NCBI GenBank assembly: GCA_938048755.1
Contig: CALIUG010000285.1
Coordinates: 1 to 38,071, forward strand
Length of the DNA stretch: 38,071 nucleotides
Direction of reading: 5' to 3'
Source of the DNA: an uncultured Alphaproteobacteria bacterium
GTDB taxonomy: Bacteria; Pseudomonadota; Alphaproteobacteria; SP197
Numbering within the stretch: position 1 is the first letter of the stretch; every line of letters starts with the position of its first letter. This document shows, in pieces, positions 7,139 to 21,212 of this stretch. The notes beneath the pieces were generated by a model. The model was not told the origin of the DNA and made no database searches. It saw only the letters and a program-made list of their open reading frames with translations. A program made the position numbers and the translations under genes.

Positions 7139-8434
7139 TTGGCCAGGAAACCGAAGAACACGTTCTCGGTCGACCACATCGCCGGAGGTGGCCTTGTGGA
7201 CCGATGTCGGCTACTGGGCGGAGGCCTGACCCTGGGCGCCGGCATGGCGGCATCGGGGATCGCGATGACGGGCCCTACCCATGCCGATGCGGCGTTATCG
7301 GAATGGGTGACTCAGGCCGGCGAGACTGTGCGCGGTTATGGCGTGCCAGCACCGGAAGAAGGTTATGTTCAGCGCGCCCTGATCCGGCCCTATGGCGACC
7401 TGGCACCTGGTTACAGCTTTTCGGGCACGCCACTGCAGTATCTGCGCGGGTCGATCACGCCCAACGGCCTCCACTTTGAGGTGCATCACGGCGGACGGCC
7501 CCTGCTGGACGCCTATGATCACCGCCTGATGATCCATGGCCTGGTCGATCGGCCGCTTCAGTTCGATGCTGCGGCGCTGGAGCGTTATCCCATGGTCTCC
7601 AACGTGCATTTTCTGGAATGTGCGGGAAACAGTGGCCGCAACGCATCCGAGAATGGGCCGCCGCAAATCACCATCGATCAGCTGCACGGGCTGGTCTCAA
7701 ACGCCGAATGGACCGGCGTTCCCCTCAACCTTCTGCTTGATGAAGCCGGAGTCAGGCCCGAGGGCAAATGGGTCATAGCAATCGGTGATGACGGGCCGGG
7801 CATGGCGCGCTCGATCCCCATCGAGAAGATGATGGGTGACGGCATCCTGGCGCTCTATCAGAACGGCGAGCGCCTGCGGCCCGAACAGGGCTACCCCATG
7901 CGCCTGCTGCTGCCGGGTTACGAGGGGAACATGAACGTCAAATGGGTGACCAGCCTGTTCGTCACCGGAAGTCCGGCACACACCAAATCGGAATCGGGCG
8001 AGTACTCCGAGCTGCTGGCCGACGGACAGACCGCCCAGTTCACCTTCGGCATGGGTGTGAAGTCGCTGATCACACACCCCTCGGCCCTGATGACGATGCA
8101 GGGACCGGGATTCTATGAAATCTCCGAGCTGGCGTGGTCGGGTGCAGGACGGATCGCCCGGGTCGAGGTATCCGCCGATGGCGGACAAAGCTGGGCCGAT
8201 GCCGAACTGGCCGGGCCTGTCCTTTCCCGCGCCGTGACCCGGTTTCGCATCCCCTGGGTCTGGGACGGCACGCCGACGGACCTGGTGAGCCGGGCAACTG
8301 ATGAAACCGGAGCGGTGCAGCCGACCCGGACCGCCTGGAAGGCCAAGTATGCGCCTTCCAACTTCCTGCATTACAACGCGATCCAGCCATGGCGCATCAC
8401 CGCACAGGGAGAGGTCGAAAATGTCTATCTCTAG
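7139..8434 (+). CDS. soxC: SoxC-type sulfite dehydrogenase, molybdopterin subunit
   Basis: A 431-residue sulfite-oxidase-family protein. SoxC is the molybdenum subunit of the periplasmic SoxCD sulfur/sulfite dehydrogenase. Residues 97-150 (GTPLQYLRGSITPNGLHFE, LMIHGLVDRPL) and FLECAGNSGRN, with molybdenum ligand C161, are typical. EGKWVIAIGDDGPGMARSIP and GYPMRLLLPGYEGNMNVKW follow in SoxC order. The C-terminal dimerisation domain ends in GEVENVYL. The start is TTG 7139 after AGGGAG; a GTG at 7196 would shorten the leader. The leader reads DRCRLLGGGL, so the Tat twin arginine is interrupted by a cysteine (R22-C23-R24), although the hydrophobic stretch and an AxA-like end are present. The last 14 bases overlap soxD. 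No soxXYZAB genes are present. Confidence 0.9.
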   Translation: MARKPKNTFSVDHIAGGGLVDRCRLLGGGLTLGAGMAASGIAMTGPTHADAALSEWVTQAGETVRGYGVPAPEEGYVQRALIRPYGDLAPGYSFSGTPLQYLRGSITPNGLHFEVHHGGRPLLDAYDHRLMIHGLVDRPLQFDAAALERYPMVSNVHFLECAGNSGRNASENGPPQITIDQLHGLVSNAEWTGVPLNLLLDEAGVRPEGKWVIAIGDDGPGMARSIPIEKMMGDGILALYQNGERLRPEQGYPMRLLLPGYEGNMNVKWVTSLFVTGSPAHTKSESGEYSELLADGQTAQFTFGMGVKSLITHPSALMTMQGPGFYEISELAWSGAGRIARVEVSADGGQSWADAELAGPVLSRAVTRFRIPWVWDGTPTDLVSRATDETGAVQPTRTAWKAKYAPSNFLHYNAIQPWRITAQGEVENVYL

Positions 8435-8942
8435 AGTCCTGTTCTGTGCGGCGCTGATCACCCTTGCGGGTGTGGCGCGTGCCGACGGACCGGGCCTTGG
8501 TCAGCCACTCGCGGCAGACGCAATCTCTGATTACGCACGTTACATCATGCCTGACGGAACGGGTCTGCCTGCAGGCAGTGGCTCTGCCGCCGCCGGCGCT
8601 GAAGTTTATCTCTACGACTGTGCCATCTGCCATGGCGATACCGGGGTCGAAGGACCGATTACGCCCTTCGTCGGCCCCAACGACGTATGGCCCAAACCGG
8701 CTGGCCTCCATTGGCCCTATGCCACAAGTCTGTTCGACTACATCCGCCGGGCCATGCCGTTTTATGCGCCCAAGTCACTGAGCGACGACGAGGTTTATGC
8801 CGTGACCGCCTACATCCTGTTCCGGAACGGCGTGATCGATGAGGACACGGTGCTCGATGCCGCGAGCCTGCCGCAGGTCGTGATGCCCAACACCGGCAAC
8901 TTCATCGATGTCTGGTCGCTACAGGGTGACCAACCCTGGTGA
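8421..8942 (+). CDS. soxD: SoxD-type cytochrome c subunit, single haem
   Basis: A 173-residue exported c-type cytochrome that would accept electrons from SoxC. Residues 1-21 are a signal peptide ending in ARA. One haem site is visible, CAICH at 67-71, with M112 in AMPFYAPKSL as the likely sixth ligand. YAVTAYILFRNGVIDED is the usual last helix of this class. Classical Paracoccus SoxD is about twice as long with two haems; this short form resembles single-haem SoxD/SorB-like partners. ATG 8421 follows GGGAGAGG, and the gene begins inside the soxC 3' end, so translation of the two is likely coupled and gives a 1:1 complex. It ends 21 bases before the convergent reductase gene. Confidence 0.85.
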   Translation: MSISRVLFCAALITLAGVARADGPGLGQPLAADAISDYARYIMPDGTGLPAGSGSAAAGAEVYLYDCAICHGDTGVEGPITPFVGPNDVWPKPAGLHWPYATSLFDYIRRAMPFYAPKSLSDDEVYAVTAYILFRNGVIDEDTVLDAASLPQVVMPNTGNFIDVWSLQGDQPW

Positions 8943-8963
8943 GGTTTCGCAAGCAACCTGACG

Positions 8964-9845
8964 TCAGCCTTCCTTGCCGCGCAGCACCTTGATGGCAGCA
9001 GCGATCTCGAGCTCGCCAAGACCACGGTCGACAGCTTCCTTGAACATGCCAAGCAGCATGTCGGTGAAACGGGTATCCATGCCGGCACTGGCTGCCGCAC
9101 CACCGATATGTTCCATGGCGGCCAGATGCACAGAGATCATCGCCTGATCGCCTTCATAGGAATCCCTGGCGATCATGTCGTCGTATTCCTTCGCGGCATG
9201 GGCGATCTCGGGCATGAAGGACGGCATGGTGTTGAAGAAGTGTTTGGGCGAGACCTTGCCTGCCTCGCAGAAGGCAGCCGCCGAGAGCATGCCCAGCGTG
9301 ACGCCGTAGAGCAGGCTGAGCCAGGCAAGGTCGAGGCTGGCCGCCGCCGCGACGTCATCACTGGCAAACAGGTTACGCCCGCCCATGGCGGCAAGCGTGG
9401 CCTCATGACGGTCATGAGCAGCACGATCACCGGACATGAAGATGCAGGTATCGGCGGCACCCATGCGATCGGGAAAGGTGGCGATGGCACCGTCAATATA
9501 GGCAATGCCGCGTTCATCAGCCCAGGCTTTCATGGCATGGGCATCTTCCGGACCACCGCTGGCAAGCTGCACCATGGTGCGCCCGGCCCACTGTTCGGGC
9601 GAGACGCCGGCCAGGGCCTCCATCGTCGAATCATAGTCGGCCAGGCAAGTCACAATCAGATCCGATGCTGCAACCGCGTCGGCGACGGCCTCGACCGGCG
9701 TGCAGAATCCGGTCGCTGCGTCACGTGGGCCAGCGCTGCGGTTCCATGCCGTGACCTTGTGTCCGGCGGCATCGAACGATCTGGCAAGATCCGAACCCAT
9801 GCGGCCCAAGCCGAGAACGGTGACGTTGTTTGATGGTGCAGGCAT
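8964..9845 (-). CDS. Imine reductase / beta-hydroxyacid dehydrogenase-like NADP(H) enzyme
   Basis: A 293-residue enzyme with an N-terminal Rossmann domain, VLGLGRMGSDLARSF (10-24), and TAWNRSAG, a loop that suits NADP. It belongs to the 3-hydroxyisobutyrate dehydrogenase superfamily. True hydroxyacid dehydrogenases carry a catalytic lysine in the interdomain helix. Here that helix reads AASLDLAWLSLLYG, with D172 at the equivalent place, which is the pattern of imine reductases and reductive aminases. The C-terminal helical domain would dimerise by swapping. Start 9845 is set by ATG with AGAGG upstream; a longer frame to 9911 lacks a ribosome site. It converges with soxD. Calling it an imine reductase is a family inference; the true substrate is open. 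Confidence 0.8.
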   Translation of the reverse strand: MPAPSNNVTVLGLGRMGSDLARSFDAAGHKVTAWNRSAGPRDAATGFCTPVEAVADAVAASDLIVTCLADYDSTMEALAGVSPEQWAGRTMVQLASGGPEDAHAMKAWADERGIAYIDGAIATFPDRMGAADTCIFMSGDRAAHDRHEATLAAMGGRNLFASDDVAAAASLDLAWLSLLYGVTLGMLSAAAFCEAGKVSPKHFFNTMPSFMPEIAHAAKEYDDMIARDSYEGDQAMISVHLAAMEHIGGAAASAGMDTRFTDMLLGMFKEAVDRGLGELEIAAAIKVLRGKEG

Positions 9846-10114: not shown

Positions 10115-10561
10115 ATGAATGAGCCGTTCGAGACCTTTCGCTGCACCGTCTTTCCCTGGCATTGCGACCAGTTCGGTCACATGAATGCGCGCTGGTATGC
10201 CGCGCATTTCGATGAGGCGAGCTTCCATCTCTATCACCAGACAGGCCTGAGCTACGGGCGTATGCACGAGGCTGGTTCTGTGATCACCGTGGTTGCCGAG
10301 ATTACCATCGAGTACCGCCACGAGATGGTCGCAGGCGATCTTGTCATCATACGCAGCGGGTTTACCCATCTGGGCAACAAGAGCCTGCGCCGGACGGCGC
10401 GGCTCTATAACGGCGAGACGGGCACGCTGTGTGCGGTCGAGCATGCACGCGACGTGTTCTTTGATGAATCGACCCGCCGTTCGACGCCCATGCCCGATGG
10501 CTTTCGGGAAATCCTGCAAACCGGCCTGATGCCAGAAGATGCGGGAACCGATCCGCGTTAG
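10115..10561 (+). CDS. Hotdog-fold acyl-CoA thioesterase (4HBT type)
   Basis: A 148-residue single hotdog domain. The signature PWHCDQFGHMNARWY (about 14-28) is the 4-hydroxybenzoyl-CoA thioesterase/YbgC motif, with the catalytic Asp and the HMN turn. VVAEITIEYRHEMVAGDLV is the following strand pair, and the C-terminal strand holds CAVEHARDVFFD. These enzymes split acyl-CoA thioesters to acid and CoA in the cytoplasm. ATG 10115 is preferred because the family starts close to the FxCxVxPWxCD strand; an upstream in-frame ATG at 10061 adds 18 unrelated residues. The gene has no same-strand neighbour nearby. The 269-bp gap before it holds only the divergent promoter region shared with the reductase gene; nothing firm was recognised there. 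Confidence 0.85.
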   Translation: MNEPFETFRCTVFPWHCDQFGHMNARWYAAHFDEASFHLYHQTGLSYGRMHEAGSVITVVAEITIEYRHEMVAGDLVIIRSGFTHLGNKSLRRTARLYNGETGTLCAVEHARDVFFDESTRRSTPMPDGFREILQTGLMPEDAGTDPR

Positions 10562-10617
10562 CCGGAGCAACGCAGAACGCTGGCCGCCTCACATGCCCAC
10601 AAGCCAGCTCCGGGGGC

Positions 10618-12639
10618 TCATGCGTTGTCGTGCACGACCAGAACTGGACCAGCAAGGTTGGCCGGCGCGTCCTCGCCGCTGGCCAGATCGATCCAGCGCC
10701 CGACCCCGCGCGAAAGACCTGCAGGCAAGGTGCCTGTTTCAGAACCGAGCCTGGGCAACAGCAACGTCCGCTGCCCGCCACCGGTCTGCAGTTGCAACGC
10801 CCGATACGCATCATCGTCACTGGCCGCTTCAAGTGTACAGCCATCACCCATCGCAGCCTGCAGGTGCCGCACGATGCGGGCACCATCGAGCGGATTGTAG
10901 AGCCGGTCGACCAGACCGCCGCTGAAGTAGTAACCGCGATCAATGCCGGTGAAGTTGTCGAGGAACACGGTGATGTCACCATGGGTCAGCGCGCCGACAA
11001 CCGATTCAGCGATCCGATTGGCATCCTCACGTTCGGCTTCATCGGGATCCAACGGCCTGCGATGGGCGAACTGGACATGGACCGCTGCCCTGACTCCCAG
11101 ACCCTCGATGCTTCTGCAGGCGGTTTCGATAGTTTGGGCGGGCGATTCACTCCGGGCAACACCGAACACCACACCGTCGATGGCGGCCCGGGCGCCATCA
11201 AGGGCAAGCACAGCCTCCACCACGCCACGCTCATCGGCCTGCAGGCCATGGCTGCTGCTGAAGGATTCGGCAAAGACGCGGCTGGCGTTGAAGAAGACCG
11301 GTACGTCACCCTTCAGATCCGCGATCCCGACCAGCAGATCGGCGACCCCGACCGTTGGTGCGATCACCTCCCATGCGGCAAGAATGCTGCCGTGATCCCG
11401 CAAGGCATCGTGTGCCCCGCCCTTGGGCAGGCCGTAGGAATAGGTCGTGAACCGGTGACCCAGCGCGGCAAGTTCAGCCATGCGTTCCCGTGTTGCGGGA
11501 TCGGCCAGATCATCAAGCGGCACCCGCAGATCCCGCACACCCATCTCCCACAGTGCCATCAGGGGATAATCGTTGCGGATGCGCTTGCGCCGGAAGGCAT
11601 CCAAGCCCCAGGGCGTGGGAATGTCGGCGCTGTCACACCACGGCTGGCGCAGGTAGAGGCCCACGGCCTGTTCCCGAGGGGCCAGGCCATGAACCCTTGG
11701 CAGGTCGTTCGAGGTTGCGGGAAGCGTTTCATCAGGCTCCAGCGCGCGGCCATGTGTGCGCACGACATGGTGCAGGTGGCCGTCGCTGTGGACATCGACA
11801 ACGGCGTAACCGAGCTTGGCACCGTCATGGCGCCCCTGCTTCATGCCCGGAGCGACACGGAACAGCTCATGATAGTCGTGACGCAAGAAACAGATCGACG
11901 GCAGCACGTAGCAACTGGTCACACCATGCCGATTGAAGAAGAAGTTATGGACGTGACCGGCCCAGAACCCTTCGACCCCATGACGATCCAGCAGGCCAAG
12001 CAGCCACGACCTGCCGGGTTCGTCGGTCGCGTCGTAGTGGCCCGGCTCATCGGCATGCGAGAGGTAGGGCGGGTAGTGGGAAAACACAAATACCCGGCGG
12101 TCCCGGTTGGCCGTCAGCAGGTCTTCAAGCCAGATGCGCTGTTCGTCTTCGCAGGGCAAACCTGAATTCACGATCATGCCGTTTATCACGACAAACAGGC
12201 AGTCCTCGTGTCCGAAGGAGAAATACTGCGCCTGAAAGTGACGCTCGTACTCGGCAATCATGGCGTCGTTGACCGTGCGTTGGGCGTGCTGGTCGAACAG
12301 GGGTTCGCCCGGAAACGCCTTTTCGCCGATGTCGTGATTGCCAGGCACCAGATAGAGCGGGCATGCGAGTTCGTCGTAAACCCGGTGGAACCGCGCGGCG
12401 GAGTCCTCATAGGCCGGCGTGCCGGGCTCAGGATGGGTGATATCGCCCAGATGCACGACGAAATCGGGTGCCAGACGGTTCAGTTCCTGCAACACATATC
12501 GCGACCGTGCCGCACCAAGCGTGACGGTATCGACATCATAGCCGCCGATGGCACTGGCCTCCTCCTCGGTGACGTGGGAGTCCGCGATGATGGCGAAGGT
12601 GAAGAGTCGTTTGCCTGCGACCCCGGATTCAGCGCGCAT
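10618..12639 (-). CDS. Metallophosphoesterase with a large unassigned C-terminal domain
   Basis: At 673 residues this is roughly twice a normal calcineurin-like phosphoesterase. The N-terminal 300 residues hold every metal-binding block: ADSH (D20, H22), VVHLGDITH, PGNHDIG, FSHYPPYL and GHVHN. The remaining ~350 residues begin around LYLRQPWCDSADIPTPWG. They contain alternating strands and helices such as LMALWEMGVRDLRVPLDDL and GVRAAVHVQFAHRRPL, which suggests a TIM-barrel-like second domain. It ends in a small beta domain (GGGQRTLLLPRLGSETG). No signal peptide is evident, so it should be cytoplasmic. ATG 12639 follows GGAG. The substrate is unknown; phosphodiesters or sugar phosphates are possible. 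It is monocistronic, divergent from the candidate small RNA. Confidence 0.8.
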   Translation of the reverse strand: MRAESGVAGKRLFTFAIIADSHVTEEEASAIGGYDVDTVTLGAARSRYVLQELNRLAPDFVVHLGDITHPEPGTPAYEDSAARFHRVYDELACPLYLVPGNHDIGEKAFPGEPLFDQHAQRTVNDAMIAEYERHFQAQYFSFGHEDCLFVVINGMIVNSGLPCEDEQRIWLEDLLTANRDRRVFVFSHYPPYLSHADEPGHYDATDEPGRSWLLGLLDRHGVEGFWAGHVHNFFFNRHGVTSCYVLPSICFLRHDYHELFRVAPGMKQGRHDGAKLGYAVVDVHSDGHLHHVVRTHGRALEPDETLPATSNDLPRVHGLAPREQAVGLYLRQPWCDSADIPTPWGLDAFRRKRIRNDYPLMALWEMGVRDLRVPLDDLADPATRERMAELAALGHRFTTYSYGLPKGGAHDALRDHGSILAAWEVIAPTVGVADLLVGIADLKGDVPVFFNASRVFAESFSSSHGLQADERGVVEAVLALDGARAAIDGVVFGVARSESPAQTIETACRSIEGLGVRAAVHVQFAHRRPLDPDEAEREDANRIAESVVGALTHGDITVFLDNFTGIDRGYYFSGGLVDRLYNPLDGARIVRHLQAAMGDGCTLEAASDDDAYRALQLQTGGGQRTLLLPRLGSETGTLPAGLSRGVGRWIDLASGEDAPANLAGPVLVVHDNA

Positions 12640-16695: not shown

Positions 16696-17907
16696 TTGAA
16701 ATCGCTGAAGGAGTTGCTGACGAAGGAAGAACGCGACGCCATTCGTGCGCCCATCGCGACGGCGCGAACCCTGCCGCGACGCTGTTTTATCGACGCTGAC
16801 TTCTATGCCTTTGAAGTACGCCATGCGCTGGCCGAAAGCTGGCTGGCGGTGGCGTTCAGAACCAGCATTCCCGAACCCGGCGACATCGCGCCGATCACGG
16901 CGCTGGGTTATCCCCTGCTGCTGGTGCGTGACGGAGAAGGCCGGGCAAGGGTGTTTCACAATGTCTGCCCCTATGACGGATGCGAGGTGGCGACCAGTGC
17001 GAAGCGGGCCCTGAAAACCATCACAGGCCCCTATCACGGCTGGAAGTATGGACTGGACGGCAAGCTGCTGGAGGCCAACTACTGGGACGGCACGCCTGCG
17101 GCCGCCGATGTCGATCTGGAATCGCTCAACGCAGACCTGATCGCAGTTCCCTGCGAAGAATGGATGTCGACGCTGTTTGTCTATCTGGGCAGCACTCCCG
17201 TCACCTTCGAGGAACAGTATGCGCCGGTCCTGAAACATCTTGAGCTGGTCGACCTGGAACGCCTGGAAATCGGGCTGGGTGAAGACGACCGGCCGCAGGT
17301 GAACTCCCTGACGATCGCGTCCAACTGGAAGACGGTCTATGAGAACTATGCACCCAACGTCTACCACGAGGCGTTTGTGCACGAGATGTACCGGAAATCA
17401 CCCCACAGCCCGCGCGTCGATGAGAACCGGAACAAGACCTATACCGAGATCAACGATCCCTCTGGCTATCTGGGCCTGTGTTACGACAACGCCATCGGTG
17501 CATCGCTCTATGGTGAGACCAGTCTGCCCAGGGTCCTGAACAAGGACGGCACGCCCAACCGGGTCAACACGATCTCGAACGTCTATCCCAACTGGGTCAC
17601 CACGGTGCTGGGCGATGCCGCGCGCATTGCGTTTTTTCTGCCCGAGGGGCCGGAAACCGGAACCCAGTGGGTCGCTACCTTCTTCGACCGTGACGGCGCC
17701 AGCGATCCTGCCCTGCTGGATGATCGCAAACAGTCCGCAAAGGCCGGCATCAAGGCGCGGGTGGAAGACAACCGGATCTGTGAATCGATCCAGCGTGCAC
17801 GCCATTCACCCGGCGTCGAAAGCCAATTCTACAATCCGTTCTGGGATGCCATGCATTACACCATGACCAACCTGATCCTGGACAAGCTGGAACGCAGCGA
17901 AGGCTGA
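16696..17907 (+). CDS. Rieske oxygenase alpha-subunit-like protein with an incomplete Rieske site
   Basis: A 403-residue protein laid out as a ring-hydroxylating or demethylating Rieske oxygenase, with an N-terminal Rieske domain (~45-150) and a C-terminal mononuclear-iron domain. The Rieske ligands should read C-x-H then C-x-x-H. The codons give C91-P-Y93 and G111-P-Y-H114, so one His is Tyr and one Cys is Gly. In the catalytic domain NWKTVYENY leads to H224 and H229, and D358 in VEDNRICESIQ can complete the iron triad. The Asp that normally bridges to the Rieske centre (ENF..D.YH) is N221. Iron binding looks possible while the usual electron path does not. The TTG start at 16696 follows GGAG; no in-frame ATG lies upstream. 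A flavoprotein gene follows after 40 bases. Confidence 0.85.
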   Translation: MKSLKELLTKEERDAIRAPIATARTLPRRCFIDADFYAFEVRHALAESWLAVAFRTSIPEPGDIAPITALGYPLLLVRDGEGRARVFHNVCPYDGCEVATSAKRALKTITGPYHGWKYGLDGKLLEANYWDGTPAAADVDLESLNADLIAVPCEEWMSTLFVYLGSTPVTFEEQYAPVLKHLELVDLERLEIGLGEDDRPQVNSLTIASNWKTVYENYAPNVYHEAFVHEMYRKSPHSPRVDENRNKTYTEINDPSGYLGLCYDNAIGASLYGETSLPRVLNKDGTPNRVNTISNVYPNWVTTVLGDAARIAFFLPEGPETGTQWVATFFDRDGASDPALLDDRKQSAKAGIKARVEDNRICESIQRARHSPGVESQFYNPFWDAMHYTMTNLILDKLERSEG

Positions 17908-17947
17908 ATCAGGCTGGTTTTTGACAAGACGTAGCGGGAGAGCAGCC

Positions 17948-19909
17948 ATGACCATGTTTCCGAAACTGTTCAGCCCGTTCGAGATCAAGGGCCACACCTT
18001 CCGAAACCGCATCTTCTCGACCGGTCATCAGACGTTGATCGTCACCGGCGGGTTGCCGAATGACGGCCTCGTTGCCTATCACGAAGCCCGCGCCAGGGGC
18101 GGTGCGGGTCTCATCATCACCGAAGCGATGACCGTGCACGAGACGGCGTTCTTCAACGAAGCCATGATTGCGGCCTATCGCGACGAATCCGTGCCGGGGA
18201 TGAGGAAGATCACCGAAGCGGTGCATCGCCATGGCACCAGGGTGTTCGGGCAGCTGTTTCATCCCGGTGCCGAAGTGCTGGGCACCGATTCCTATGGCAC
18301 ACGAACGGTCGCCTGGGCCCCGTCATCGATCAACCATGAGCGTTACTTTGCAACGACCCGCGAACTCACGCCCGAGCTGATCGAGGAGATCATCGAAGGG
18401 TATGCCCTTACGGCAGAACGCATGGTCGAAGCCGGTTATGACGGTGTCGAGATTGTCGCGAGTCACGGTTATCTGCCCGCACAGTTCCTCTCCCCCATGA
18501 TCAACCAGCGCAGCGACCAATGGGGCGGCAGTCGGGAAAACCGGCAGCGGTTTCTGCTGGATGTGGCGCGCCTGCTGCGTCAGCACCTTCCCGCCAGCAC
18601 GATCGTGGGTTTGAGAATTTCGCTCGATGAGAAGGATCACCTGGGGGTCAAACCCGACGAAGCGCTGGCCGCCCTGGCTGCGCTCGAGGCCGAGAATCTG
18701 GTGGACTACATGAACATTGCCTATGGCTCATCGGCAACCACGGGTTCTTCGCCCCATATCGCACCGCCCATGATGATCGACGCCGGTTACATGCGCGAAG
18801 CCGGCGCGGCCGTGAAGCAGGCGGTCCGGACGCCAATCCTTCTGGCCGGGCGGTTCAACCAGCCGCAACTGGCCGAAACGGCCCTGGCTGCGGGCGAGGC
18901 CGACATGATCGGCATGACACGCGCGCAGATCGCTGATCCTGAGATGGCCAACAAGGCTCGCGAAGGTCGCGTGGACGACATCCGCGCCTGCATCGCCTGC
19001 AACCAGGCCTGCATCGGCCACGTTGCGTTGGGCACACCGATCTCCTGCATCCAGCATCCTGAGACCGGGCGGGAACTGGCCTATGGCACGCGAAGGCCCG
19101 CCGATCCGGCACGGCGTGTACTTGTGGCCGGTGGCGGTCCCGCTGGCATGAAGGCGGCCGCCGTGGCCGCCGAACGTGGACATTACGTGACACTGTGTGA
19201 GGCAACGAGCCAACTCGGCGGCCAGGCCCTGCTCGCCCAGCAACTGCCGAAACGAGCCGAGTTCGGCGGCATTGTCACCAACCTGGCCCGGGAAATGGAA
19301 CTGGCAGGGGTTACGGTGCGCCTTTCGACCCCTGTCACCGTGGATCTGGTTAATGCTGAAGGCGCAGATGCAGTGATCGTGGCAACGGGTGCCAGGCCCC
19401 ATGTACCCGATATCGAAGGCGCGGAGGACGGCCATGTGGTAACCGCCTGGCAGGTCCTGACGCGCGAGGTCAATTGCGGCGGCAGTGTCGTGGTGGCCGA
19501 CTGGCGCGGCGACTGGGTCGGTGTCGGCATTGCCCAGATGCTGGCGCTGGAAGGCCGGCATGTGCGTCTGATGACCAGTAGCCACGCCGCGGGGATCAAC
19601 CTGCAACCTTATGTGCGCGACATGATCGTGGGTGAGTTGATGCGATTGGGCGTAACGATCACGCCCTATGCACGGCTGGCGGGTGTCGACAGCGATACGG
19701 CCTATTTCGAGCAGACAACAACGGGCGAAGCGATCCTGGCCGAAGGCACCGAGACCGTCGTTCTGGCCCAGGGCCACCGCAGCGTGGATGGCCTGCTGGC
19801 GGAACTCACCGCATCGGGCATCGCAGCCGAAGCAATCGGTGATGCCCTGTCACCGCGAAGCGCCGAAGAAGCCGTGCTGGAAGGCCTGAAGGCGGGCGCA
19901 GCGCTCTAG
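17948..19909 (+). CDS. Old Yellow Enzyme/TMADH-type FMN, [4Fe-4S], FAD oxidoreductase
   Basis: 653 residues in the order of 2,4-dienoyl-CoA reductase, trimethylamine dehydrogenase and dimethylglycine/stachydrine demethylases. An FMN TIM barrel (1-340) carries ASHGYLPAQFLSP around H173 and the NQRSDQWGGS loop. A [4Fe-4S] site follows at C348, C351, C355 and C367. A Rossmann FAD/NAD half (from ~390, VLVAGGGPAG) contains VIVATGARP. These enzymes oxidise N-methyl groups or reduce enoyl bonds and pass electrons through the cluster. ATG 17948 follows GGGAGAGCAGCC. Lying 40 bases after the Rieske-like gene, it is probably in the same operon, a pairing common in betaine-type demethylation. Its last codons and stop fall inside a 21-bp sequence repeated at 21400. 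Confidence 0.85.
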   Translation: MTMFPKLFSPFEIKGHTFRNRIFSTGHQTLIVTGGLPNDGLVAYHEARARGGAGLIITEAMTVHETAFFNEAMIAAYRDESVPGMRKITEAVHRHGTRVFGQLFHPGAEVLGTDSYGTRTVAWAPSSINHERYFATTRELTPELIEEIIEGYALTAERMVEAGYDGVEIVASHGYLPAQFLSPMINQRSDQWGGSRENRQRFLLDVARLLRQHLPASTIVGLRISLDEKDHLGVKPDEALAALAALEAENLVDYMNIAYGSSATTGSSPHIAPPMMIDAGYMREAGAAVKQAVRTPILLAGRFNQPQLAETALAAGEADMIGMTRAQIADPEMANKAREGRVDDIRACIACNQACIGHVALGTPISCIQHPETGRELAYGTRRPADPARRVLVAGGGPAGMKAAAVAAERGHYVTLCEATSQLGGQALLAQQLPKRAEFGGIVTNLAREMELAGVTVRLSTPVTVDLVNAEGADAVIVATGARPHVPDIEGAEDGHVVTAWQVLTREVNCGGSVVVADWRGDWVGVGIAQMLALEGRHVRLMTSSHAAGINLQPYVRDMIVGELMRLGVTITPYARLAGVDSDTAYFEQTTTGEAILAEGTETVVLAQGHRSVDGLLAELTASGIAAEAIGDALSPRSAEEAVLEGLKAGAAL

Positions 19910-19973: not shown

Positions 19974-21212
19974 TCAGCTGGAAACGATCGTGCGCGGCAG
20001 GCGCGATAACAGCTCCGGCCCATCCTCGGTCACGAGGATCGTTTCGATGAAGTTGCAGCCGGTGCCACCGGGCCAGCCATCCCAGACATCGAACTGGTTC
20101 TCATAGTTGAAGGCGAGGCCGGGCTGAACGGTGATTTTTTCGGCCGTTGGCCCGAAGGTTTCCTCTTCCCAGTGATTCCAGTAGGCGCCGGTCCAATCGG
20201 GCGGGAACGAGATTCCCATCGGATAACCACCGATCCACCAGGCCTTGTCCATCAGGCCGACCTTATCGATATACGCTTGGGCGATCTCGTCCACACGGGG
20301 CAGAGGGTCACCGATCTTGAGGTTCTCAAGAATTGCGTCGATCGAGCCGGCGGCTTTCTCCATCACCTCAAGCCAGCGGTCGTCGGCCTTGCCGATCGAG
20401 AACGTCCTGCAGGTGTTCACGTGGTAGCGGTGAAGTGCGGGGCAAAAATCGATACTGACGAGATCACCCTCCTTCACACGGCGATGGGTCGGCGCGGAAT
20501 GATGTGTGCCCGACCGGACACCCGATCCGATCATCGTGTGGATGGCGGGATAGTTGCAGCCCTGCTCCATGAGGCTGGCGGTCATCACAGCCTCGATCTC
20601 GGTTTCCCTCATACCCGGCACCATCGCTGCACGCGCGGCGTCAAGCGCGTTGTCGCCCATGGTCGCGGCCTGTCGCATGACCTCCTGCTCGCGCGGCGAC
20701 TTGCAGAGACGCTGCGTCTCCACCAACAACGAGGCGTCGACCACGTTGGCACCCTTGGCGCGCAGCCTTTCGCCCAGTGCCTCGACCACCGAAGGATGCG
20801 GCCCCCAGCCCCAGAATTGAAGGCCGATCGTGCCGCCGGCGAGACCGCGAGCGTCGAGTTCATCGGCCATGATGCCGAAATCGGCGGGCTCAGCCATGGG
20901 GCCGTGATCGAAGAAGACGACGTCGCGAAGCTCCGGCACCAGGGAGACAATCGTGGCGTGCGCGGCGGCATCGAAAAAGAGTGTGTCGTCACTGTCAGCC
21001 CTCACAACCAGTGTGGCCGGGTTGCGCAGGTGGCTCAGAATCATGTCGTAGCCGGTAAGCCAGTTCATGTCGGGAAAACGGCAGAGCATGAGAACATCGA
21101 CGCCGGCTTTCGCCATGGCCGCACGCACACGCTTCCGGCGATCGGCGTATTCCTCTGCCGGAAAGGGCAGATCCCAGTCGATCTCGTCTCTGAGGTTGGT
21201 TTTCAGTTCCAT
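19974..21212 (-). CDS. M24 / creatinase-type hydrolase lacking the usual metal ligands
   Basis: A 412-residue pita-bread protein of the Xaa-Pro peptidase, creatinase and ectoine hydrolase superfamily. The N-terminal domain shows MNWLTGYDMILSHLRNPATLV, in part the substrate-gating region. The catalytic domain starts near TQRLCKSPREQEVMRQA. In true metallopeptidases five residues hold two metals. Here VSIDFCP keeps one Asp, YHVNTCRTF has Asn where the second Asp belongs, the HG motif is GGYPMGIS, and the two late Glu positions (FNYENQFD, NFIETILV) remain. That pattern fits the metal-free creatinase/DoeA branch, which hydrolyses C-N bonds of small molecules. ATG 21212 is preceded by GGGAG. It sits alone between two 21-bp direct repeats, convergent to the flavoprotein gene. 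The substrate is unknown. Confidence 0.8.
   Translation of the reverse strand: MELKTNLRDEIDWDLPFPAEEYADRRKRVRAAMAKAGVDVLMLCRFPDMNWLTGYDMILSHLRNPATLVVRADSDDTLFFDAAAHATIVSLVPELRDVVFFDHGPMAEPADFGIMADELDARGLAGGTIGLQFWGWGPHPSVVEALGERLRAKGANVVDASLLVETQRLCKSPREQEVMRQAATMGDNALDAARAAMVPGMRETEIEAVMTASLMEQGCNYPAIHTMIGSGVRSGTHHSAPTHRRVKEGDLVSIDFCPALHRYHVNTCRTFSIGKADDRWLEVMEKAAGSIDAILENLKIGDPLPRVDEIAQAYIDKVGLMDKAWWIGGYPMGISFPPDWTGAYWNHWEEETFGPTAEKITVQPGLAFNYENQFDVWDGWPGGTGCNFIETILVTEDGPELLSRLPRTIVSS

Follow-up and report, generated by a model that had tools for sequence, protein, structure and literature searches.

The gene at 16696-17907 and its product

The gene described here lies at 16696-17907 on the forward strand of the window, i.e., the whole 38,071-nucleotide stretch of DNA that was analysed, and encodes a protein of the Rieske-oxygenase fold. 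It is followed by genes for a flavoprotein and an M24-type protein, and the features of the locus are as follows.

16696-17907, + strand: cluster-less Rieske-oxygenase-fold protein, open frame, 403 aa, TTG start
16837-17076, + strand: Rieske-like domain, residues 48-127 (Pfam limits), PF00355 match; fold kept, ligands gone
16966-16974, + strand: first ligand loop, C91-P-Y93 (canonical C-x-H), codons TGC CCC TAT
17026-17037, + strand: second ligand loop, G111-P-Y-H114 (canonical C-x-x-H), codons GGC CCC TAT CAC
17356-17358, + strand: Asn221 (AAC), replacing the bridging Asp/Glu
17365-17367, + strand: His224 (CAC), iron ligand 1 by position
17380-17382, + strand: His229 (CAC), iron ligand 2 by position
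17767-17769, + strand: Asp358 (GAC), iron ligand 3 by position
17921-19909, + strand: OYE/FadH-type flavoprotein (FMN barrel plus FAD/NAD domain), Pfam Oxidored_FMN and Pyr_redox_2
19974-21212, - strand: M24 peptidase/creatinase-fold protein, convergent, by Pfam; best NCBIfam match ectoine hydrolase DoeA

The reading frame contains no internal stop, and its codons bore out all residues named in the original prediction, namely C91-P-Y93, G111-P-Y-H114, Asn221 and an intact H224, H229 and D358. Pfam matched both Rieske (PF00355, E 2.4e-11) and Ring_hydroxyl_A (PF00848, E 4.8e-20) in the protein, indicating that the Rieske-like domain is present and that only its ligands are gone. Compared with a Rieske oxygenase alpha-subunit, the protein combines the Rieske-like and catalytic domains in one chain and carries the 2-His-1-Asp iron triad, but C91, Y93, G111 and H114 do not make up the four cluster ligands, and Asn221 occupies the place of the bridging Asp/Glu. 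According to the accessible part of PMC10952381, the residues that coordinate the two centres show high conservation throughout all five groups and serve to identify the Rieske oxygenase family. The window's own genome (G000, 4.16 Mb) holds a large set of related proteins, with 51 matches to a Rieske oxygenase query at E up to 1e-5.

AlphaFold2 predicted the full oxygenase fold for the window protein with a mean pLDDT of 92.2, and was least sure at residues 221-240 (block pLDDT 65 and 61), where Asn221 and both iron histidines lie. The closest folds to the model were CntA (carnitine monooxygenase) and Stc2 (stachydrine demethylase), both Group V Rieske oxygenases, the match to CntA covering model residues 5-399 of 403. 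Unlike CntA and Stc2, the protein and the clade to which it belongs lack the cluster ligands and carry Asn where the Glu/Asp bridge stands, a residue described as essential in CntA in the available text of PMC7948474. Some Group V enzymes have a Cys-x-x-Cys pair beside the iron site (PMC10952381, in part), and E. coli YeaW reads E-C-Y-H-C at these positions, whereas none of the 38 full-length clade rows has a Cys at 222 or 225, where V/L/I/T and E are found.

A clade of homologues sharing the ligand loss

Orthologues from the same genus were found in three genomes at 83%, 71% and 93% identity, the last being partial (240 residues, with the ligands outside), and the two that cover the motif read CPY and (G/T)PYH. 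A second group at ~29-39% identity to the window protein, which includes a paralogue on contig C10 of the window's own genome, reads x-P-Y-D and x-x-Y-H. Scanning of a named genome collection with a nine-sequence profile yielded 43 loci, 40 of which held clade members (L096 decayed and a few truncated) and three of which (L101-L103) held intact oxygenases. The source records of these loci were mostly alpha- or gammaproteobacterial MAGs, and a few further MAGs carried the labels Myxococcota or Myxococcales (2), Nitrospinaceae, Chloroflexi and Latescibacterota. Clade members were also present in two named-strain records not labelled as MAGs, Pseudomaricurvus alkylphenolicus KCTC 32386 and Leucothrix arctica IMCC9719, which makes the clade testable. 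The clade was delimited by profile score (>290 bits) and not by motif, and the decayed copy L096 was kept outside the motif counts. The contig scan of the collection used the peptide patterns [VA]FHN[IV][CV]PY and [ATS]NWKT[YV][QY]E, of which the first is biased towards Tyr93; searches by profile, which are independent of the motif, produced an identical split wherever loci were read. At the above score, clade members occurred in 11 of the 16 genomes searched within the taxonomic order (G001 and G011 with fragments only), in 4 of 385 genomes drawn from the class and in 1 of 398 from the phylum, which was the genome of the window itself, at most four candidates per genome being scored in the two draws. 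The cluster-less clade is rare overall. Plasmid records matching the window protein numbered 873, and the 25 matches listed were all at 26-29% identity and annotated as ordinary ring-hydroxylating dioxygenases.

Residue conservation was compared between 43 non-redundant clade rows, 41 of them covering the ligands, and 84 other oxygenase rows. Cys111 was found in none of the 41 rows and His93 in only one (L093:8284-9468, with Gly91 and Ser111, i.e., G-x-H and S-x-x-H), while His114 was kept in all. No clade row retains all four ligands (0/41), as against 84/84 of the other rows, which is the opposite of a full motif in every homologue. At the bridge, Asn stands in 42/42 clade rows covering it and Asp/Glu in 83/83 others. 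His224 and His229 are each kept in the 42 clade rows covering them, and Asp358 and the full HHD triad in 40/40, two more rows ending before Asp358. Among full-length clade members (38 rows), T, V, S, G and A all occur at position 111, position 94 is always D (R/K in intact rows), and E225, Y232, R240 and Y272 are invariant at identities to the window protein down to 29%. With the motif regions masked, these 38 rows had profile scores of 372-451 bits, as against 192 at most for the 84 others, so the split between the clade and other oxygenases does not depend on the motif. The pattern of ligand loss is far from chance, being common to the whole clade. We also considered that a different metal centre, held by His114, Asp94, Cys96 and neighbouring residues, might have taken the place of the Rieske cluster, which would fit the invariance of D94 and H114 (38/38) and the presence of Cys96 in 34/38 clade rows vs 0/55 intact rows; yet position 96 is S, H or T in the other four rows, and Cys91, kept in 21 of the 38, is V in 16 and G in one, and such a centre appears very improbable.

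For phylogenetic analysis, rows shorter than 340 aa were left out, and 93 of 128 (38 cluster-less and 55 intact) were kept. The maximum-likelihood tree, built with the motif columns dropped, separated the cluster-less rows from the intact ones by a branch with 100/100 support and a stem length of 0.93, and quick trees of the catalytic domain alone and of the N-terminal domain alone gave the same split (SH-aLRT 90 and 98, respectively). Six intact rows joined the clade at a fork with 98/90 support under midpoint rooting, this six-row group being itself weak (97/60) with long branches; YeaW fell among the intact rows on a long branch. The homologue search and tree that had been proposed for this pattern thus recovered a clade with the same loss, and the topology indicates that the cluster ligands were lost once, with a single origin. 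The proposed dN/dS measurement (NG86) gave values of 0.080-0.216 across eight pairs, and the window gene compared with its two closest orthologues gave 0.087 (241 codons) and 0.102 (dS 1.1, near saturation). The Rieske-like domain was looser than the catalytic domain in 6/7 pairs (0.159 vs 0.092 in one, 0.121 vs 0.120 in another) and tighter in one, and is strongly constrained nonetheless. These ratios indicate that the clade is under purifying selection.

These data bear on the suggestion that a recently inactivated enzyme still sits in the operon or that a sequencing error affects the window genome alone. The underlying observation, that a single base separates each change from the canonical codon, holds for Y93, G111 and N221, and decayed clade copies do exist elsewhere (one TGA in G000:C10, two TAA in G005:C8). 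The one-base distance, however, carries no evidential weight because the losses are ancient, as seen from the five different residues at position 111 and from D94 in 38/38 rows; moreover, orthologues in other assemblies bear the same substitutions, the same kind of loss recurs in many of them, and the two dN/dS values of the window gene are low. Recent decay or read error was thus ruled out by the clade (shared loss, single origin and dN/dS), and the chance left to it is negligible.

Several genomes carry more than one copy. At L057 (G000:C10:1834-4259), the window's own genome has a second cluster-less paralogue with an open frame and a third, tandem copy broken by one TGA, with a flavin-amine-oxidase-type gene and an alpha/beta-hydrolase nearby. 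A same-genus genome carries a decayed cluster-less copy with two TAA stops (G005:C8:65870-66925; L043, L059, L096), and the Myxococcales MAG at L093 has two cluster-less genes, at 8284-9468 and 10522-11691.

Within the part of the open-access literature covered, with preprints and most subscription papers outside it, the matches listed contained no account of a Rieske oxygenase clade whose cluster ligands have degenerated, and the accessible part of the AromaDeg paper (PMC4250580) makes no mention of such a group. The matches listed for the homarine/proline-betaine pathway held nothing usable, PMC12746152 dealing, in its available part, with riboflavin catabolism and being irrelevant. The clade would probably be hidden by automatic annotation as an ordinary ring-hydroxylating dioxygenase.

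Gene neighbourhood and possible sources of electrons

Neighbouring genes were compared between 42 clade loci (38 of the 43 collection loci, without L096, L098 and L101-L103, plus L051, L056, L057 and the window) and 16 control loci of intact oxygenases, taken from G005 and G008 only, of which L163 overlaps the clade locus L062. Within 2.5 kb, an alpha/beta-hydrolase was found in 15/42 clade loci vs 0/16 controls, a PF01593 flavin amine oxidase in 9/42 vs 0/16, a metallo-beta-lactamase fold in 6/42 vs 1/16, an amidase in 2/42 vs 0/16 and an amidohydrolase in 2/42 vs 1/16, counts to be taken as leads and not as tests, given that clade loci supplied the queries, that several near-duplicates stand among the loci and that the controls represent two genomes. 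The alpha/beta-hydrolase lies directly downstream in 6/6 window-like loci beyond the window's genus (L061, L063, L064, L065, L067 and L068), while the same-genus loci (window, G005, G008 and G009) have no such hydrolase next door, and the single match in the window genome is weak (E 3.4e-11) and adjoins a different clade paralogue. In seven loci (L056, L057, L083, L088, L091, L095 and L100), the hydrolase, a flavin amine oxidase and the cluster-less gene form one run, with a divergent gene in six of the seven, that of L100 encoding a TetR regulator. In these downstream genes and runs, one or a few members per gene cluster were identified by scanning, the rest being BLAST cluster-mates. The hydrolase association may be loose, since the hydrolase folds differ between subgroups.

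In the window, the cluster-less gene is probably co-transcribed with the flavoprotein gene, for which an in-frame ATG at 17948 after GGGAGAG appears by eye a likelier start than the TTG at 17921. The flavoprotein scored 596.5 bits against mycofact_OYE_2 (NCBIfam TIGR03997), below the cut-off of 793.15, and the 20 matches listed of 2387 plasmid records include full-length relatives, ~53% identical, on Shinella and Paracoccus plasmids, where they adjoin cupins and transporters and reveal no pathway. An OYE/FadH gene directly after the cluster-less gene was seen in the window only; in G009, of the same genus, the window order is kept with ~0.7 kb and a possible small ORF between the two genes. 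The convergent M24 protein scored 138 bits against DoeA, far below the cut-off of 613, and its gene also lies near the orthologue in G005 and G009, occurring within 5 kb in 4/42 clade loci vs 0/16 controls.

The original prediction suggested that the iron site is perhaps fed by this flavoprotein, and electrons might likewise be borrowed within a mixed trimer, where an intact oxygenase would contribute its Rieske centre in an NdmC/NdmD-like manner. A precedent is NdmC of the NdmCDE caffeine N7-demethylase, described in the accessible part of PMC4408171 as a Rieske-family non-heme iron oxygenase without its own Rieske cluster, for which use of the additional Rieske centre carried by NdmD has been proposed. 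The window protein resembles NdmC, as far as that part of the paper describes it, in being a Rieske-family protein without its own cluster, but differs from NdmC-type split oxygenases, in which the Rieske domain is absent and a partner reductase carries one, by keeping a Rieske-like domain whose ligands are lost. What stands of the proposal is that the flavoprotein gene directly follows, 13-40 bases downstream, in the window, and that an intact oxygenase adjoins the cluster-less gene in L071, L075, L077 and L080; within 2.5 kb, however, OYE/FadH genes occur in 2/42 clade loci vs 1/16 controls, which leaves feeding by the flavoprotein weakly supported; another oxygenase occurs in 6/42 (in L057 and L093 as second cluster-less copies) vs 4/16, showing no enrichment, and the bridge is Asn in every clade row covering it. 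Borrowed electrons are thus an unlikely solution, and an obligatory intact-oxygenase partner was rejected on the same oxygenase counts. Queries with E. coli YeaX and HcaD matched none of 44 clade loci and none of the 16 intact-oxygenase controls, and so do not discriminate; the matches to HcaC, one in L080 and one in control L168, were weak and fell within oxygenase genes, and the HcaF (beta subunit) query matched in L066 beside that locus's other, intact oxygenase.

Alternatively, the iron site could act as a peroxygenase driven by hydrogen peroxide from a flavin oxidase encoded next door in some members, with no relay needed. Such a role would agree with the PF01593 counts given above and with the DAO-type FAD oxidases (sarcosine/dimethylglycine-oxidase-like) within 5 kb in L062, L064 and L068 (3/42 vs 1/16 controls, the one positive control lying in the same region of G008), and CntA, one of the nearest structural matches, is able to work through a peroxide shunt in which neither NADH nor a reductase takes part (PMC10952381, in its accessible part). 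No PF01593-type oxidase, however, lies beside the window gene or window-like loci, and the neighbour of the window gene is an OYE/FadH-type flavoprotein; we regard peroxide as a less probable but live alternative, on a par with borrowed electrons.

Proposed function of the clade

Taken together, the branch is almost certainly real and functional, an old and well-kept lineage of the Rieske-oxygenase fold. Within the limits of sequence evidence, the single origin, the invariant triad, the invariant Asn and purifying selection support the original prediction of a diverged branch whose iron site operates with no intramolecular electron transfer. A normal relay is disfavoured because the cluster is missing and Asn is fixed at the bridge, while the invariant triad favours iron chemistry, and catalysis by iron in the clade proteins is probable. 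Loss of the whole relay could also be expected of a pseudoenzyme or non-redox protein whose iron site serves a structural, binding or metal-hydrolytic role and not oxygen chemistry; but the triad together with E225, Y232, R240 and Y272 is invariant at identities to the window protein as low as 29%, and enzyme genes are repeatedly found alongside, which leaves this reading somewhat less probable still than the peroxygenase or borrowed electrons. We lean slightly towards an iron enzyme that neither uses a Rieske relay nor borrows electrons and whose mode of action differs from the alternatives above.

Extradiol-type and other 2-His-1-carboxylate Fe(II) dioxygenases have the same kind of iron site, need no electron donor and often pass their product to a hydrolase, and their folds differ from the Rieske-oxygenase fold; the analogy with them rests on the neighbours and the missing relay, not on sequence. 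In the interpretation we favour, the [2Fe-2S] cluster would have been lost once, the former electron bridge fixed as Asn, and the His-His-Asp site kept for the catalytic iron. Presumably, the subunits would still assemble into the head-to-tail trimer, and His114 would still meet Asn221 and His224 of the neighbouring subunit in a structural contact at the former electron relay. Iron would be bound, and the reaction would draw no electrons from a Rieske centre; most likely, the protein would be an Fe(II)/O2 dioxygenase taking all four electrons from the substrate, as in extradiol-type ring or C-C cleavage, and the product may then pass to the hydrolase whose gene adjoins that of many members. 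A donor-free dioxygenase is preferred because hydrolases are the commonest partners, and we advance this specific assignment tentatively, at somewhat less than an even chance. The broader scenario, in which one ancient event dropped cluster and bridge and gave rise to a self-sufficient non-heme iron enzyme without a redox partner (a donor-free dioxygenase or native peroxygenase), hydrolase-coupled in many members, seems to us evenly balanced. The flavin amine oxidase and sarcosine/dimethylglycine-oxidase-like neighbours of some members allow a guess that amine-containing compounds are the substrates. A conserved clade without cluster and bridge but with the iron site offers a natural experiment on the chemistry open to the mononuclear iron by itself in this fold, and is relevant to the dependence on redox partners that restricts the application of Rieske oxygenases.

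Further genes near clade members were recorded. In Pseudomaricurvus alkylphenolicus (L069:10900-13947), one protein that combines CofC, radical SAM and CofH parts (F420-type cofactor synthesis) is encoded near the cluster-less gene. In the window, the product of 21670-22728 matches Cupin_3 (EutQ-like) only in its last quarter (266-338 of 352 aa), its first 265 residues having no Pfam match at E 0.001. The window also encodes a SoxC-type sulfite dehydrogenase at 7139-8434 (488.7 bits, above the NCBIfam cut-off of 420) and, at 1194-2354, a GCV_T (aminomethyltransferase-like) protein, a further one-carbon-type gene.
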